Assembly (NCBI GenBank): GCA_009840385.1
Contig: VXNX01000013.1
Location: forward strand, 510,222-574,221
DNA from: Candidatus Dadabacteria bacterium
Lineage (GTDB): Bacteria; Desulfobacterota_D; UBA1144; Nemesobacterales; Nemesobacteraceae
Length of the DNA: 64,000 bases
Reading direction: 5' to 3'
A model generated the notes under the pieces. That model searched no databases and was not told the origin of the DNA. It worked only from the letters and a program-made list of their open reading frames with translations. Of the stretch, positions 3,849 to 62,868 are shown one piece after another. Numbering within the stretch: position 1 is the first letter of the stretch; each line of letters begins with the position of its first letter. Made by a program: the position numbers and the translations under genes.

Positions 3849-3878
3849 TTGCATTTTCTGAATTTATCGACATATTTT
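3849..3878 (+). promoter_or_regulatory. Predicted leaderless promoter of pyruvate kinase
   Basis: TTGCAT (3849-3854), an 18 nt spacer and TATTTT (3873-3878) lie such that transcription would begin at or next to the ATG at 3886. The 20 nt before the ATG contain no purine-rich Shine-Dalgarno. Both boxes are imperfect, so this is the weakest member of the leaderless set. Confidence 0.4.
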
Positions 3879-22953: not shown

Positions 22954-22982
22954 TTGACACCGGAGGCCCTAGCACGTAGAGT
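22954..22982 (+). promoter_or_regulatory. Promoter of the cobalamin riboswitch transcript
   Basis: TTGACA (22954-22959), 17 nt spacer, TAGAGT (22977-22982), directly in front of the riboswitch. The -35 sits in the loop of a perfect 7 bp inverted repeat CCTCCGG/CCGGAGG (22944-22966), which may be the grxC terminator stem or a protein operator. Confidence 0.6.
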
Positions 22983-22989
22983 TATCTTC

Positions 22990-23185
22990 AGATTCAGGTT
23001 AAGGGAATCGGGTGAGAATCCCGAACTGTTCCCGCAGCCGTAATAAGGGTTTTTTCCATGCCCTAGCGGAGCGCGCCTGCGCTTCGGGTCACTGGCTTTG
23101 AGAAAAGCCGGGAAGGCCGCATTTGGAAAACCAGTTCTGTTTTGACAACAGATGGCCCTTTGAGTCGGAAGACCTGCCTGCGTCA
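22990..23185 (+). ncRNA. Cobalamin (B12) riboswitch
   Basis: The leader of the BtuB-like gene contains the conserved cobalamin aptamer blocks: GGGAA paired with TTCCC, GGTGAGAATCCC, the CCCGCAGCCGTAA core (about 23030-23042), GGGTCACTGG with GCCGGGAAGGC (about 23086-23117) and a 3' B12-box-like GTCGGAAGACCTGCC (about 23164-23178). Order and spacing match the family. It should turn expression down when adenosyl- or other cobalamin is plentiful. Confidence 0.93.
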
Positions 23186-23245
23186 ATCTAGTAGCTTTGC
23201 CTCGGGAGTTAGGCGCATGATCTATAGAAACACATTTTTCGTTTT

Positions 23246-23343: not shown

Positions 23344-25281
23344 ATGAACGGCCTTAAGGCATTTTTTACCTTTATTTTGCTTGTGTTCCTGTTCCCGCAC
23401 GCGGGTTTTTCCGAGCAAGAGGAACCGAAAAAGATCATAGTAACGGGGACAAAAACCTGGATTGACGTCGACCGTCTAGGGTCTTCCGTTACCGTCATCA
23501 ACAGAGAGGAGATTGAGAGAAGCGGGGAAAAAGACATCTCGTCCATACTCTCGAGAGTAACGGGATTCAACGTAGTCGGCACGGGAAGCCGTGGAGGCAA
23601 CTCCTCGATTTTCGTGAGGGGCGGTCAGTCGGATTACAATCTCGTGATGATAAACGGCGTTCAGATAAACCAGGCCGGAGGAGGTTTCGACATCTCTTCT
23701 CTTACTACCGAGAGTGTAGAGAGAATAGAGATAATAAAAGGCGCACACTCTTCTCTTTACGGTTCAGACGCGGCGTCTTCCGTTATAAACATAATAACGA
23801 AGCGCGGCAGCGGAAAAATCAAAAGGACAGGATCAGTGGCCCTAGGATTCCGTGCCGAAGACGCCATGATCCTCGAGCATTCCGCGAGTGTATCGGGCAG
23901 CTTGGAGAAACTGGGATATTTTCTTTCTCACCAGAGAATCGTCGATGAGGGCATTTTAGAGATCAACAACGATTACAAAAACAATAACTTCACGGCAAAC
24001 CTGAACTTGGAAGCAAGCGATAATTTAAATCTCTCCTTCTTCTCCTTATACAGAGACTCAAAGTTTGAATTCCCGACCGCAGGCGCGGGGGACAGATTCG
24101 ACGCTTTCGCCGACCCCGACAGCCAGACTAAAGAAAAATCATTTATCACGGGTTCGGACATCGTTTTTTCCCCGACGCAATGGTGGGAGAATTCACTTAA
24201 GATCGGCTATATGAGGCTTGACCGGGAAAGCTACGATGGTCCCGAGCCCGTTGAACTGGATGGGGCAGAGTCAGAGTTTGACACTCTCGACAAAAGAATA
24301 TCCCTTGAATACGGGTCCAGCCTCTTTGTCGACCTTGATCAGATCTCGAGCATAATCTCAACTGGGTTTGAGTATGAAAAGGAAAGCTTCAAGACCGACT
24401 CCCTAGATGAATCAAGAAAAAACTACGCCTTCTACGCTCAGAAAAACCTCGCACTGCTTAAAACGTTTTTCGTAACAGCGGGCATAAGGTATGACGACAA
24501 TGAAGCGTTCGGGAGCGAGTGGAGTCCGAGCATCTTCGTTAAGTGGAAGGTAAAAGAATCGGGAACCGAGATAAGGGGAGGGGTAAGCAGGGGAATCAAG
24601 GAAGCGAACTTCTTTGAAAATTTCAGTACGGCTTTCGGAACAATACCTAACCAGGACCTAAAACCCGAAGAGACCCTGACCGCGGAAATAGGCATTAATC
24701 AGCCGCTGTTTGACAACGCGGTCGAATTCGACCTGAGCTTTTTCCAGAACAAATTCAAAAACATTATCGCCTACAGTTTCACACCTTTTGAGAATGGAAC
24801 TAACTACGAGAACATAAGCCGTGCGGAGTCAGAGGGCGCAGAAGCCGTAATCCGCTTCTACCCGAGCGACACTTTAACTCTGAGCACAGCCTACACGTAC
24901 GTTAAAACCGATGTGACTGACGACGGCGGCTTGGGGTCTGCGGCCTTTTCCGAAGGGGAAAGGCTCATACGGGTACCCGAACATTCGCTCTCATTTAACG
25001 CAGGATATTCAAAAAACGCTATTAACCTCAGTCTTTCGGGAAGCTACGTAGGCAGCAGGGATGACGTGGACTGGAGCGGGTTTCCGAGCACCAGAGTTAA
25101 AAACGATTCTTTTTTCCTCGTTGACGCGGCGGCTTCCTACGAAATCAGCCTGAAGGGGTTTGTCGACAAAATCAGGCTGTTCTCAAGAGTAAACAACCTG
25201 TTCAATAAGGATTACGAAAATGTTTTCGGCTTTTCATCCCCGGGGTTCAGCATGATTTCAGGAGTTTCAGTAGTGCGGTAG
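23344..25281 (+). CDS. btuB: TonB-dependent cobalamin receptor, BtuB-like
   Basis: Outer-membrane receptor, 645 residues. Signal peptide 1-23; a possible TonB box near KKIIVTGTK; plug domain (about 40-150) with VFVRGG-type motif IFVRGGQSDYNLVMINGV and IEIIKGAHSSLYGSDAASSVINIITK; then a beta-barrel to the C-terminus with SRVNNLFNKDYENVFGF. GGAGGAGC precedes the ATG. The B12 riboswitch upstream is the best evidence for the ligand. No btuCD is in the window; a BtuF-like protein is at 36933. Confidence 0.92.
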   Translation: MNGLKAFFTFILLVFLFPHAGFSEQEEPKKIIVTGTKTWIDVDRLGSSVTVINREEIERSGEKDISSILSRVTGFNVVGTGSRGGNSSIFVRGGQSDYNLVMINGVQINQAGGGFDISSLTTESVERIEIIKGAHSSLYGSDAASSVINIITKRGSGKIKRTGSVALGFRAEDAMILEHSASVSGSLEKLGYFLSHQRIVDEGILEINNDYKNNNFTANLNLEASDNLNLSFFSLYRDSKFEFPTAGAGDRFDAFADPDSQTKEKSFITGSDIVFSPTQWWENSLKIGYMRLDRESYDGPEPVELDGAESEFDTLDKRISLEYGSSLFVDLDQISSIISTGFEYEKESFKTDSLDESRKNYAFYAQKNLALLKTFFVTAGIRYDDNEAFGSEWSPSIFVKWKVKESGTEIRGGVSRGIKEANFFENFSTAFGTIPNQDLKPEETLTAEIGINQPLFDNAVEFDLSFFQNKFKNIIAYSFTPFENGTNYENISRAESEGAEAVIRFYPSDTLTLSTAYTYVKTDVTDDGGLGSAAFSEGERLIRVPEHSLSFNAGYSKNAINLSLSGSYVGSRDDVDWSGFPSTRVKNDSFFLVDAAASYEISLKGFVDKIRLFSRVNNLFNKDYENVFGFSSPGFSMISGVSVVR

Positions 25282-34832: not shown

Positions 34833-35440
34833 GACTCAACGGCGCAAAGAGCCTCGAATAAGGCACACACCTGAGCGCCCAGATTCTCCATGTCGGAGGA
34901 ATTTTCTATCAGAAAATCGGCCTGGGATGCCTTTTCCGCTTCAGACATCTGGGAATCCATGCGGCGACGGATTTCCTCAGGCGACATGCCGTCGCGCTCC
35001 GCCACCCTGCGCTCCCTCAACTCCCCGGGACACGTAACCACCACCAGACCGTCGATCAGGTCATTAAGACCGCCGCTTTTGCGATCTATGAGAGATGCCT
35101 CGACGAACACCATCTGTTGCTCGTCGTCTCGGGTGGATATTCTCTCCTTTATGCGCTCAAGAATCCTAGGATGGGTTATCCGGTTTAGCCGCGCGCGCTC
35201 TCTTTCGTCTGCAAACACCACTTCGGCAAGGGCCTCGCGGTCAAGTGTGCCGTCCTCGCGGAGAATTTCCCTGCCGAAGCCGGCAACGATTTCCGCAAGC
35301 GCCGGTTCCCCTGGGCTCACGATTTCCCTCGCCACCTCATCCGCGTCCAGGGTGAAGGCCCCCAGTTCGCGAAGCATCCGCGCCACCGTCGACTTGCCCG
35401 AACCTATGTTTCCCGTGAGTCCGTATATTTTCATCTTCAA
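34829..35440 (-). CDS. coaE: Dephospho-CoA kinase
   Basis: Last step of coenzyme A synthesis. 203 residues with P-loop GLTGNIGSGKST, the LDADEVAREIV segment and LID-type region. The ATG overlaps the gltX stop by 4 nt. A second in-frame ATG lies two codons in. Confidence 0.95.
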   Translation of the reverse strand: MKMKIYGLTGNIGSGKSTVARMLRELGAFTLDADEVAREIVSPGEPALAEIVAGFGREILREDGTLDREALAEVVFADERERARLNRITHPRILERIKERISTRDDEQQMVFVEASLIDRKSGGLNDLIDGLVVVTCPGELRERRVAERDGMSPEEIRRRMDSQMSEAEKASQADFLIENSSDMENLGAQVCALFEALCAVES

Positions 35441-36840
35441 GCACTCCGGGACCTTGTAAAGTCAATTGCCCTGGCAAGGCGCCGCGCAACTGTGTCCCTG
35501 CCCAGTATCTCAACGACATCGAAGATTCCCGGGCTCTTTGTCGAACCGGTAAGCGCTACTCTTACGGGCTGGGCTATCTTCCCGAGGCCGAGACCCGTGC
35601 GCTGCATTACGCGCTCGAAGCCTCCGTGAATATCATCATGGGAAAAATTCTCAACTCGGGAGAGCTCTTCTGAGAGAAGCTCGAAAATCTCGCCGCTTCG
35701 CTCCACCAGGAATTTATCCGCCGCCTTTTCGTCGTATTCAAAATCATCGGTGAAAAAATAAAGGGACTGCTCCACAATTTCGTTCAGCGTCTCCGAACGC
35801 TCGCGCATCTGTGCGATTATTTTGCGAAGCTGTGCGGGAGGCGGTTCAGGCAGCTCCGTCTGCTTAATGAGAGAAACCACCCCTTCTGATATGCGCTCCT
35901 CGGGCAGGTCCCTTAAGTATTTTCCGTTAAGCCAGAGGAATTTCTGAGAGTCAAACACCGAAGGGGATTTACCGATGCCTTTCAGGCTGAATTTTTCAAT
36001 GAGTTCCTCTACTGTAAAAATCTCCTGATCCCCGAAAGACCACCCCAGTCTCACCAGGTAGTTAAGTACCGCCTCGGGAAGATATCCGCGCAGTCGGTAC
36101 TCCGTAACGGATTCCGCTCCGTGGCGCTTTGAGAGTTTTTTTCCGTCAGACCCGAGTATCATCGGAACATGGGCAAGCTTGGGCTTCGCCAGACCGAGCG
36201 CGTCGGCTATCAGTATCTGCCTCGGGGCGTTTATTATGTGGTCATCGCCCCTTATAACGTGAGATATTCCCATCTGCGCGTCATCAACCGCGGCAGCGAA
36301 ATTGTAGGTCGGAAACCCGTCGGCTTTCAGTATCACGAAGTCTTCAATTTCCGAAGAGTCAAAAACTATCCCGCCGCGGACGAGATCCTCAACGGAAATC
36401 TTTTCTCCCAGGGACACGGAAAGCCTAACGGCGTAGGGTTTTCCGGGGGCGGCGCCGATCTGCGACCACTCCCTTCTGTATCTGAAGACCTCCCCTTTCT
36501 CTCTGGCTTCTTCTCTCCTGCGCGCGAGTTCCTCGGCCGCAACATAGCATCTGTACGCTTTTTCCTCGTCAACCAGCCGCTCGGCAAGTTGTCCGTAAGT
36601 GTCAAGTCGCTCTGACTGGCGGACGATTTCCCCCTGCCACTTAAGTCCGAGCCACTTAAGCGATTCTACGATCTGCCGTTCGAATTTCTCCTCGGAGCGC
36701 GCGCGGTCGGTATCCTCAATCCTGAGCAGGAAATCTCCGCCAAGACTCGCGGAAAAAAGCCAGTTGAAAATAGCGGTGCGGGCCGCTCCCACATGAAGAG
36801 CGCCCGTGGGGCTGGGAGCGAATCTTGTTACGATCTTCAC
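35437..36840 (-). CDS. gltX: Glutamyl-tRNA synthetase
   Basis: Charges tRNA-Glu (and perhaps tRNA-Gln). 467 residues from GTG 36840; the frame is open 87 codons further upstream, but the conserved KIVTRFAPSPTGALHVGAART starts here. KLSKRH stands for the KMSKS motif. There is no Shine-Dalgarno; TAAAAT lies 7 nt upstream of the GTG. Coupled to coaE by a 4 nt overlap. Divergent from the BtuF-like gene. Confidence 0.95.
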   Translation of the reverse strand: MKIVTRFAPSPTGALHVGAARTAIFNWLFSASLGGDFLLRIEDTDRARSEEKFERQIVESLKWLGLKWQGEIVRQSERLDTYGQLAERLVDEEKAYRCYVAAEELARRREEAREKGEVFRYRREWSQIGAAPGKPYAVRLSVSLGEKISVEDLVRGGIVFDSSEIEDFVILKADGFPTYNFAAAVDDAQMGISHVIRGDDHIINAPRQILIADALGLAKPKLAHVPMILGSDGKKLSKRHGAESVTEYRLRGYLPEAVLNYLVRLGWSFGDQEIFTVEELIEKFSLKGIGKSPSVFDSQKFLWLNGKYLRDLPEERISEGVVSLIKQTELPEPPPAQLRKIIAQMRERSETLNEIVEQSLYFFTDDFEYDEKAADKFLVERSGEIFELLSEELSRVENFSHDDIHGGFERVMQRTGLGLGKIAQPVRVALTGSTKSPGIFDVVEILGRDTVARRLARAIDFTRSRSA

Positions 36841-36847
36841 AAAGACT

Positions 36848-36853
36848 ATTTTA
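36848..36853 (-). promoter_or_regulatory. -10 box for leaderless gltX mRNA
   Basis: TAAAAT on the minus strand (36853-36848), seven bases before the GTG start at 36840. No strong -35 is visible 16-18 nt upstream (T-rich), so confidence is moderate. Confidence 0.5.
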
Positions 36854-36896
36854 CACGCCGAAGCGGTAAAAAAAGAAATGCTCCATGGAAGGGGGC

Positions 36897-36926
36897 TTGG
36901 GAGTTCTCTTGCGGCGACTGTATAAT
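36897..36926 (+). promoter_or_regulatory. Promoter for leaderless BtuF-like mRNA
   Basis: TTGGGA (36897-36902), 18 nt spacer, perfect TATAAT (36921-36926), then six bases to the ATG at 36933. AAGG at 36927-36930 is too near the ATG to act as a normal Shine-Dalgarno. Confidence 0.6.
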
Positions 36927-36932
36927 AAGGGC

Positions 36933-37883
36933 ATGAGAATATGTTCTCTCCTCCCGAGCTCAACCGAGATAATATTCGCCCTTGGGCTTGAGGAAACCCT
37001 GGTCGGAGTAACGCACGAATGCGATTACCCTCCGCAGGCGCGAGACAAGCCCGTGGTGGTAAACAGCATTCTCGAAGGAAAAGGCAAGCTCTCAAGCGCA
37101 CGCATAGACGAACTTGTAAGCAGCAGCCGCTCGGAGGGAAAAAGCGTTTATCTGATCGACTCCGAGCTCCTAAAGGAGATGAAACCGGATCTCATAGTAA
37201 CCCAAGGGCTTTGTGACGTCTGCGCGGTATCTGAAAACGAGGTGACGGATGCCTGCGAAATTCTCGAGAACAGTCCTGAAATACTGTCCCTTGACCCTAC
37301 CACCGTCGGCGAGATAATGGATTCCATACTGGTTCTGGGAGAAATCACGCGCACCAGAAGCAAGGCTTCGCAACTCGTAGAGAATCTTCGCAAAAGAGTC
37401 GAGACCGTCGAGAAAAAACTTTCGGGAGAAAGATACCGTCCGGGGGTTTTCTGCCTTGAGTGGCTTGACCCTCCGTATGCGGCCGGGCACTGGGTGCCGG
37501 AAATGGTAATGACGGCTGGAGGAGAACCGCTCATCTCAAGGGTGGGAGAACCTTCGTTTAAGACAAGCTGGAATGAGATACTAGAGGCGAACCCTGATTA
37601 CATGATCATAATGCCCTGCGGGTTCGACATAGAAAAAACGCTTGACGGAATAGAAGAGGTAACGGGCAGGGTAAGGCAATGGCACGTACTGCGCTCCGTA
37701 AGAAAAGGCCACTGTTACGTAGTGGATGCGAATTCCTATTTCAGCAGGTCTTCACCCAGGGTAGTTGATGGAATTGAACTGCTGGCAGGAGTAATCCACC
37801 CCGACATATTTACGCAACGACCGAAGGATAACTCGGTCTTAAACTTGAAAAACCACTTCTATCTGCAGACTTTTCTCGGTTAG
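36933..37883 (+). CDS. BtuF-like cobalamin-binding-fold protein without signal peptide
   Basis: 316 residues from ATG 36933 (open frame to 36885). The protein starts directly with MRICSLLPSSTEIIFALGL, the first strand of the periplasmic-binding fold, followed by VGVTHECDYPP, DLIVTQGLCDVCAVS, and CLEWLDPPYAAGHWVPEMV. These are hallmarks of the stand-alone cobalamin-binding protein group related to BtuF/FepB. Neither possible start gives an export signal, so it is probably cytosolic. The TATAAT box six bases before this ATG supports the start. Role is unclear: intracellular corrinoid handling is inference. Confidence 0.83.
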   Translation: MRICSLLPSSTEIIFALGLEETLVGVTHECDYPPQARDKPVVVNSILEGKGKLSSARIDELVSSSRSEGKSVYLIDSELLKEMKPDLIVTQGLCDVCAVSENEVTDACEILENSPEILSLDPTTVGEIMDSILVLGEITRTRSKASQLVENLRKRVETVEKKLSGERYRPGVFCLEWLDPPYAAGHWVPEMVMTAGGEPLISRVGEPSFKTSWNEILEANPDYMIIMPCGFDIEKTLDGIEEVTGRVRQWHVLRSVRKGHCYVVDANSYFSRSSPRVVDGIELLAGVIHPDIFTQRPKDNSVLNLKNHFYLQTFLG

Positions 37884-42152: not shown

Positions 42153-42180
42153 GAGAATGATTAAATGAGAATGATTTTCA
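42151..42180 (-). promoter_or_regulatory. Tandem Fur-type operator and -10 box at the fur-merC start
   Basis: The 12-mer ATGAGAATGATT occurs twice, at 42151-42162 and 42165-42176. The upstream copy extends to TGAGAATGATTTTCA (42166-42180), an imperfect 7-1-7 palindrome like the Fur core. The minus-strand -10 TTTAAT (42165-42160) lies between the copies, so a bound repressor would cover it. Autoregulation is likely. The rest of the gap to 42436 shows no gene. Confidence 0.7.
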
Positions 42181-42436
42181 ATTAGCTCTTATTCTAAATC
42201 GCTTATTACGAACCGTCAAGGACAAAAACCGAAATTAAAAAGACGCAACCGCGGAAAGCAAGGAGCCTATTTGCGAGGTGATTACATATCGGAAAATCCA
42301 TGTGAATAAGGGTGCCCAGCGTTTGTTCCCATAAGTATTCAGGGTTATACTCTCATCGGAATAAAGATGTATTCGGGTTTCCATTTCCAGAAAAACGATT
42401 TCAATTTGACATGCGCGGGAGACAGTTAAGTTCATC

Positions 42437-48063: not shown

Positions 48064-48123
48064 ATTCTGACCCCCCTGCTTTTCTCTTGACCTTCAAATC
48101 CTTACGTGTTATTCTGACCCCCC
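48064..48123 (+). repeat. Direct repeat of ATTCTGACCCCCC
   Basis: A 13 nt sequence occurs exactly at 48064-48076 and 48111-48123, 47 bp apart, in the gap before rpmH. The second copy overlaps the rpmH -10 box and its short leader. It could be a regulator site or the relic of a small mobile repeat. Confidence 0.55.
48087..48115 (+). promoter_or_regulatory. Promoter of rpmH-rnpA
   Basis: TTGACC (48087-48092), 17 nt spacer, TATTCT (48110-48115) with an extended -10 TGn in front. Predicted leader is only about 5 nt, with no Shine-Dalgarno before the ATG. Confidence 0.6.
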
Positions 48124-60864: not shown

Positions 60865-60892
60865 ATGATAAGACCCGAAAAACTAAAGTCAA
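60865..60892 (-). promoter_or_regulatory. Promoter for leaderless trpE mRNA
   Basis: Minus strand: TTGACT (60892-60887), 16 nt spacer, TATCAT (60870-60865), then eight bases (TTCCTCTC) before the ATG at 60856. Confidence 0.6.
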
Positions 60893-62839: not shown

Positions 62840-62868
62840 TTGTAAAACAACGGCCGAATTTGTAGAAT
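62840..62868 (+). promoter_or_regulatory. Promoter for leaderless thiD mRNA
   Basis: TTGTAA (62840-62845), 17 nt spacer, TAGAAT (62863-62868), then six bases to the GTG at 62875. No Shine-Dalgarno. Confidence 0.65.

Follow-up and report, generated by a model that had tools for sequence, protein, structure and literature searches.

Do the mRNAs of a divergent gene pair in an uncultured, sponge-associated Dadabacteria lineage begin at their own start codons? The question is raised by gltX and a BtuF-like gene, each of which has a −10-like hexamer a few bases before its start codon and no Shine-Dalgarno (SD) site. The pair lies in the stretch of 64,000 nucleotides that we analysed (the window), which comes from a 1.66 Mb Candidatus Dadabacteria genome (G000; 14 contigs, 97.75% complete). 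The window gltX product shares 82–89% amino-acid identity with those of ten Candidatus Dadabacteria and ~54–63% with those of more distant Dadabacteria. The features of the pair are as follows.

35437..36840, minus strand: gltX, glutamate–tRNA ligase (TIGR00464, 522.8 bits)
36838..36840, minus strand: gltX start codon GTG; N-terminus MKIVTRFAPSPTG, TIGR00464 match from residue 2
36848..36853, minus strand: gltX −10 hexamer TAAAAT, 7 nt to the GTG, without SD
36921..36926, plus strand: BtuF-like −10 hexamer TATAAT, 6 nt to ATG 36933, without SD
36933..37883, plus strand: gene for a BtuF-like periplasmic binding protein (Peripla_BP_2; similarity to BtuF weak)

The N-terminal sequence fixes the gltX start to within a few codons, and the GTG occupies the same alignment column in all congeners, being ATG in one species. 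Both ends of the intergenic region of 90-odd bp were kept in the congeners, while its middle varied and contained indels. On the gltX side the congeners carry TGTAAAAT followed by 7 nt and GTG or ATG (one species has TGTAGAAT), and on the other side TATAAT was retained in 10 congeners, 6–10 nt from the ATG. A canonical −35 was sought before gltX in its own genus and was found in 0/16 cases at 3 of 6 matches; a conserved T-tract stands upstream instead. In several other Dadabacteria families gltX is preceded by TTGACT-17-TAACAT-9-ATG or TTGACT-17-TAACCT-8-ATG. In family f8, TATAAT was seen 6 or 10 nt before the ATG in some, not all, of the members checked, and in family f5 gltX instead starts directly after an upstream reading frame. 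When a comparable −35/−10 test was applied to gltX outside the phylum, 0/64 genes passed; it is the other Dadabacteria families that provide the contrast, because the congeners, having no −35, would fail the test too. We also noticed two related genomes (L230 and L233, in G025 and G024) in which a single in-frame TAA interrupts the reading frame matched to gltX.

The BtuF-like gene is of leaderless type in its own family (TATAAT, 7 nt to the start in L111) and carries SD-like sites in another (GGGAGG in L112, GGGGAGG in L113), so the mode of initiation can switch. As a separate observation, its tail is partially duplicated: a second stretch ~130–250 bp downstream is 64–84% identical to the last 32–45 residues (G002:C1:197376-197507, with similar places in G003, G004, G005, G009 and G015). 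A cobalamin riboswitch aptamer (RF00174, 67.8 bits) is located at 22979–23195 on the plus strand of the window, just 5' of an open reading frame at 23344.

The sequence-only reading had proposed the same arrangement for further genes of the window. Their family profile matches are TIGR00564 for trpE, TIGR00097 for thiD, TIGR01064 for pyk, TIGR01030 for rpmH and, for the Fur-type gene, the FUR family.

60865..60870, minus strand: trpE −10 TATCAT, 8 nt before ATG 60856, without SD
60887..60892, minus strand: trpE −35 TTGACT, 16-nt spacer
62863..62868, plus strand: thiD −10 TAGAAT, 6 nt before GTG 62875, without SD
62840..62845, plus strand: thiD −35-like TTGTAA, 17-nt spacer
3871..3876, plus strand: pyk conserved −10 CATATT, 9 nt before ATG 3886
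3849..3854, plus strand: pyk −35-like TTGCAT
48110..48115, plus strand: rpmH −10 TATTCT, 11 nt before ATG 48127, leader of ~3–5 nt
48087..48092, plus strand: rpmH −35 TTGACC, 17-nt spacer
42160..42165, minus strand: TTTAAT, 7 nt from ATG 42152 of the Fur-type gene, an ambiguous and weak hexamer
42191..42196, minus strand: alternative −10 of the Fur-type gene, TAGAAT/TACAAT, better conserved, giving a leader of ~30 nt without SD

All hexamers and distances that had been quoted are present, and gltX, the BtuF-like gene, trpE and thiD indeed have no SD. The hexamers of these four genes were kept in 10–14 congeners; for trpE and thiD they were also kept in every member of other families that was sampled. 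A −35, a 16–17 nt spacer and a −10 ending 7–9 nt before the start were found upstream of trpE in 36/36 Dadabacteria examined, and an SD in none of the 36; thiD has an abutting promoter in 29/29, with gaps of 5–8. Shuffled sequences passed the same rule at a rate of 0.09–0.13.

The remaining genes fared differently. The TATTTT named for pyk (3873–3878, 7 nt from the ATG) exists, although all 11 congeners have C in place of its last T, and it was rejected as the −10; the hexamer that is kept is CATATT, two bases away, at a gap of 9 in 12/12 of the genus. For rpmH, the block TTGACC-17-TATTCT-11-ATG is nearly invariant in 4 relatives. The TTTAAT of the Fur-type gene is present but decays in relatives, as far as TTTGAC. 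It adjoins TGAAAATCATTCTCA (42166..42180, minus strand), spotted by eye from the consensus 5' of the gene, which we take to be a Fur-box-like 7-1-7 inverted repeat. The repeat is kept in congeners, a second genus of the family has it as AATTGAGAAATATTCTCAATT, and autoregulation of the gene through it is probable. Because TTTAAT is not kept, the repeat overlaps and the better TAGAAT/TACAAT lies upstream, the leader of this gene is ambiguous and the gene is an unsafe case.

To see how common the arrangement is, we compared a 424-kb part of contig C13 that contains the window with the sister species G009; the sequence stretches sampled cover about half of the genome. Start codons were chosen by coding score and by conservation in both species, ignoring upstream motifs; starts chosen by coding potential only gave a blurred profile, orthologue-supported starts a sharper one. 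A gene was counted as first of its unit when the neighbour upstream had the opposite orientation or was over 40 nt away. Among 294 genes with orthologue-supported starts, 199 were first genes, 99 with an SD-like 4-mer and 100 without, which bears out the coexistence of both modes. TATAAT with at most one mismatch was found at gaps of 6–10 in 20/100 SD-less first genes, against 3.1±1.7 in dinucleotide shuffles, and in 0/99 first genes with SD. The motif was also conserved in the sister species in 17 SD-less genes vs 0 with SD (Fisher p = 7e-6). The enrichment that the sequence-only reading had predicted, of −10-like hexamers at −14 to −6 from SD-less starts, was likewise seen (TANNNT at gaps 5–8, 21 vs 6.7±2.5, 0/500 shuffles).

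The recurrence within the window exceeds chance (5/19 SD-less first genes vs 0.5±0.7, 0/1000 shuffles), and so does that outside it (15/81 vs 2.5±1.5, 0/1000). The same single-genome pipeline, with 0/200 shuffles in every case, gave 18 vs 4.9 in a held-out 397 kb of the same genome, 16 vs 5.0 in the sister species G009, and 8 vs 1.3 and 20 vs 10.6 in the distant Dadabacteria G027 and the AT-rich G072, respectively. Applied to E. coli K-12, it gave no excess over 200 kb (3 vs 2.0). After subtraction of chance, ~17/294 genes of the 424 kb remain, that is ~6% of genes and ~8% of first genes, and about 1 in 12 transcription units seems, from these upstream sequences, to have an mRNA whose 5' end coincides with the start codon or precedes it by a few bases.

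An alternative reading is that these genes have ordinary, longer SD-less leaders, initiated through S1 or an unstructured leader, and that the AT-rich hexamers are low-structure elements or secondary promoters. An abutting −10 is missing from about 80 of the 100 SD-less first genes, and therefore some leadered SD-less mode probably exists; binding of S1 may account for an AT-rich bias at −20 to −10 (Nakagawa 2017, PMC5397173), and the Fur-type gene, with its TAGAAT at 42191–42196, fits such a leader better. However, the hexamers keep a narrow distance: control gaps of 0–4 and 12–16 were mostly at expectation, and conserved hexamers occurred in 14 genes at gaps 5–9, in 5 at 10–14 and in 2 at 15–19, ordinary leaders beginning at ~30. 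−35-like hexamers with at least 4 matches were found in 11/60 tests at spacers of 16–18 vs 5/260 at other spacers, and thus at the spacing that a promoter requires; a sigma-70-type −35 is clear for trpE, thiD, pyk and rpmH and enriched for the whole set. In addition, the motif is nearly absent from operon-internal SD-less genes (2/51), and upstream of trpE the −35, the spacer and the distance to the ATG are constant while the other bases vary. We consider longer leaders an improbable explanation for the abutting hexamers.

Mis-assigned start codons, with true starts downstream preceded by SD sites, are a still less likely explanation: the family matches of GluRS, ThiD and Pyk begin at the first residues, and the start codons were retained in all congeners, although mis-assignment is probably true for folK just beyond the window. 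There, ~3.4 kb past the window end (G000:C13:577632-577660), 27 bp separate the start codons of a folK/phhB-like pair and hold a −10 for both. We rejected it as a second divergent leaderless pair, the folK GTG being lost in five congeners and phhB having an SD in distant relatives. The 27 bp contain the near-symmetrical TTAATATATAAT. Upstream of phhB, AAGGAG is kept in one congener (L393) and only GAG in the others, which points to a lost SD site. That −10-like hexamers were picked by chance from AT-rich upstream regions, as the failure of the pyk and Fur hexamers in their first form might indicate, has next to no probability given that no shuffle reached the counts, also outside the window, and that conservation is class-wide; chance is refuted for the gene set, while single genes may carry the motif by chance (~3/20 listed genes expected; one, folK, shown false).

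Nor do the SD-less genes reflect a damaged translation apparatus. The anti-SD of the window genome is intact, its 16S gene ending in GGATCACCTCCTTT, and a 576-codon open frame with five S1 domains was found; loss of either as the cause is ruled out.

Sigma-70-type promoters abutting start codons, giving leaderless mRNAs or leaders of 0–4 nt beside the normal SD mode, are thus what we very probably see here, judging from sequence. The hexamers would be −10 elements of housekeeping sigma-70-type promoters, with transcription beginning at the start codon or 0–4 nt before it. Base −1 was a pyrimidine in 15/18 of the genes vs 37/99 SD genes (p = 5e-4), a bias that fits transcription starting on the start-codon purine; GTG starts were found in 5/18 vs 8/99 (p = 0.03), and TTG was absent, all of this on small numbers. 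The mRNAs of gltX, the BtuF-like gene, trpE and thiD would be leaderless or nearly so, those of pyk and rpmH having a slightly longer leader. If transcription began exactly 7 nt after the −10, gaps of 8–11 would leave leaders of 2–5 nt, so that trpE, pyk and rpmH may have such short leaders and not be strictly leaderless. An mRNA starting at or near the start codon would leave the ribosome no upstream landing site, and we infer both the RNA 5' end and translation from a 5'-terminal AUG or GUG without SD interaction. About half of the first genes keep ordinary SD sites, which the same ribosome would read. Going further, we lean slightly towards the view that initiation without a leader is an ancient trait of particular genes, shared by the whole class, the abutting promoters of trpE, thiD and gltX having been retained as it diversified, that ribosomes of this lineage accept a 5'-terminal GUG well, and that genes of the BtuF-like type switch modes between families.

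This would add an uncultured phylum to the lineages that use this minority mode of initiation, and gene finders that look for SD sites may assign wrong starts there. The orthologues, with a BtuF-like gene leaderless or SD-led by family and the conserved GTG of thiD, form a set in which the mode switch and the tolerance of 5'-terminal GUG could be tested with reporters. In the open-access literature, most subscription journals lying outside this scope, we found no earlier report of leaderless genes in Dadabacteria. Leaderless mRNA had been described by the sequence-only reading as widespread in Actinobacteria, Deinococcus and archaea and little known from Gram-negative candidate lineages; the candidate lineage itself does appear undescribed, but the Gram-negative part was too strong, because leaderless genes have already been predicted in delta-Proteobacteria (8/33 genomes, mean share 15.8%), Acidobacteria (13.3%) and Aquificae (26.5%) (PMC3160421).

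The phenomenon is in fact already established and is not confined to Gram-positives (PMC3160421, PMC12340547, PMC9031893). TA-led leaderless genes were reported in 207/953 bacterial genomes (Zheng et al. 2011, PMC3160421), and the Dadabacteria genes resemble this class in having TANNNT/TATAAT with its first T ~12 bp ahead of the start codon, in lacking an SD and in occurring beside SD-led genes. This spacing is found in gltX, the BtuF-like gene, trpE and thiD (gaps 6–8), whereas pyk (9) and rpmH (11) would have a short leader. Similarly, leaderless mRNA in Deinococcus-Thermus is transcribed from a −10 that lies a few bp ahead of the ORF, with an optional but stimulating −35, and genes with ribosome-binding sites coexist (Zhong et al. 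2025, PMC12340547); the evidence there is experimental and covers ~30% of ORFs, whereas in Dadabacteria the mode is predicted and rarer. Leaderless translation by 70S ribosomes (PMC9031893) would be the corresponding mode of initiation. Leaderless mRNAs that start with GUG are translated efficiently in Mycobacterium and Streptomyces and weakly in E. coli and Caulobacter (PMC9031893); the GTG of thiD in most species and of gltX in nearly all congeners may, by analogy, resemble the actinobacterial preference, in a lineage of Gram-negative type. Dadabacteria were not among the groups of the TA-led survey (PMC3160421), the share here is lower at ~6% of genes, and single promoters could be traced across the whole class. 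What is new is the lineage and the depth to which single promoters are conserved.
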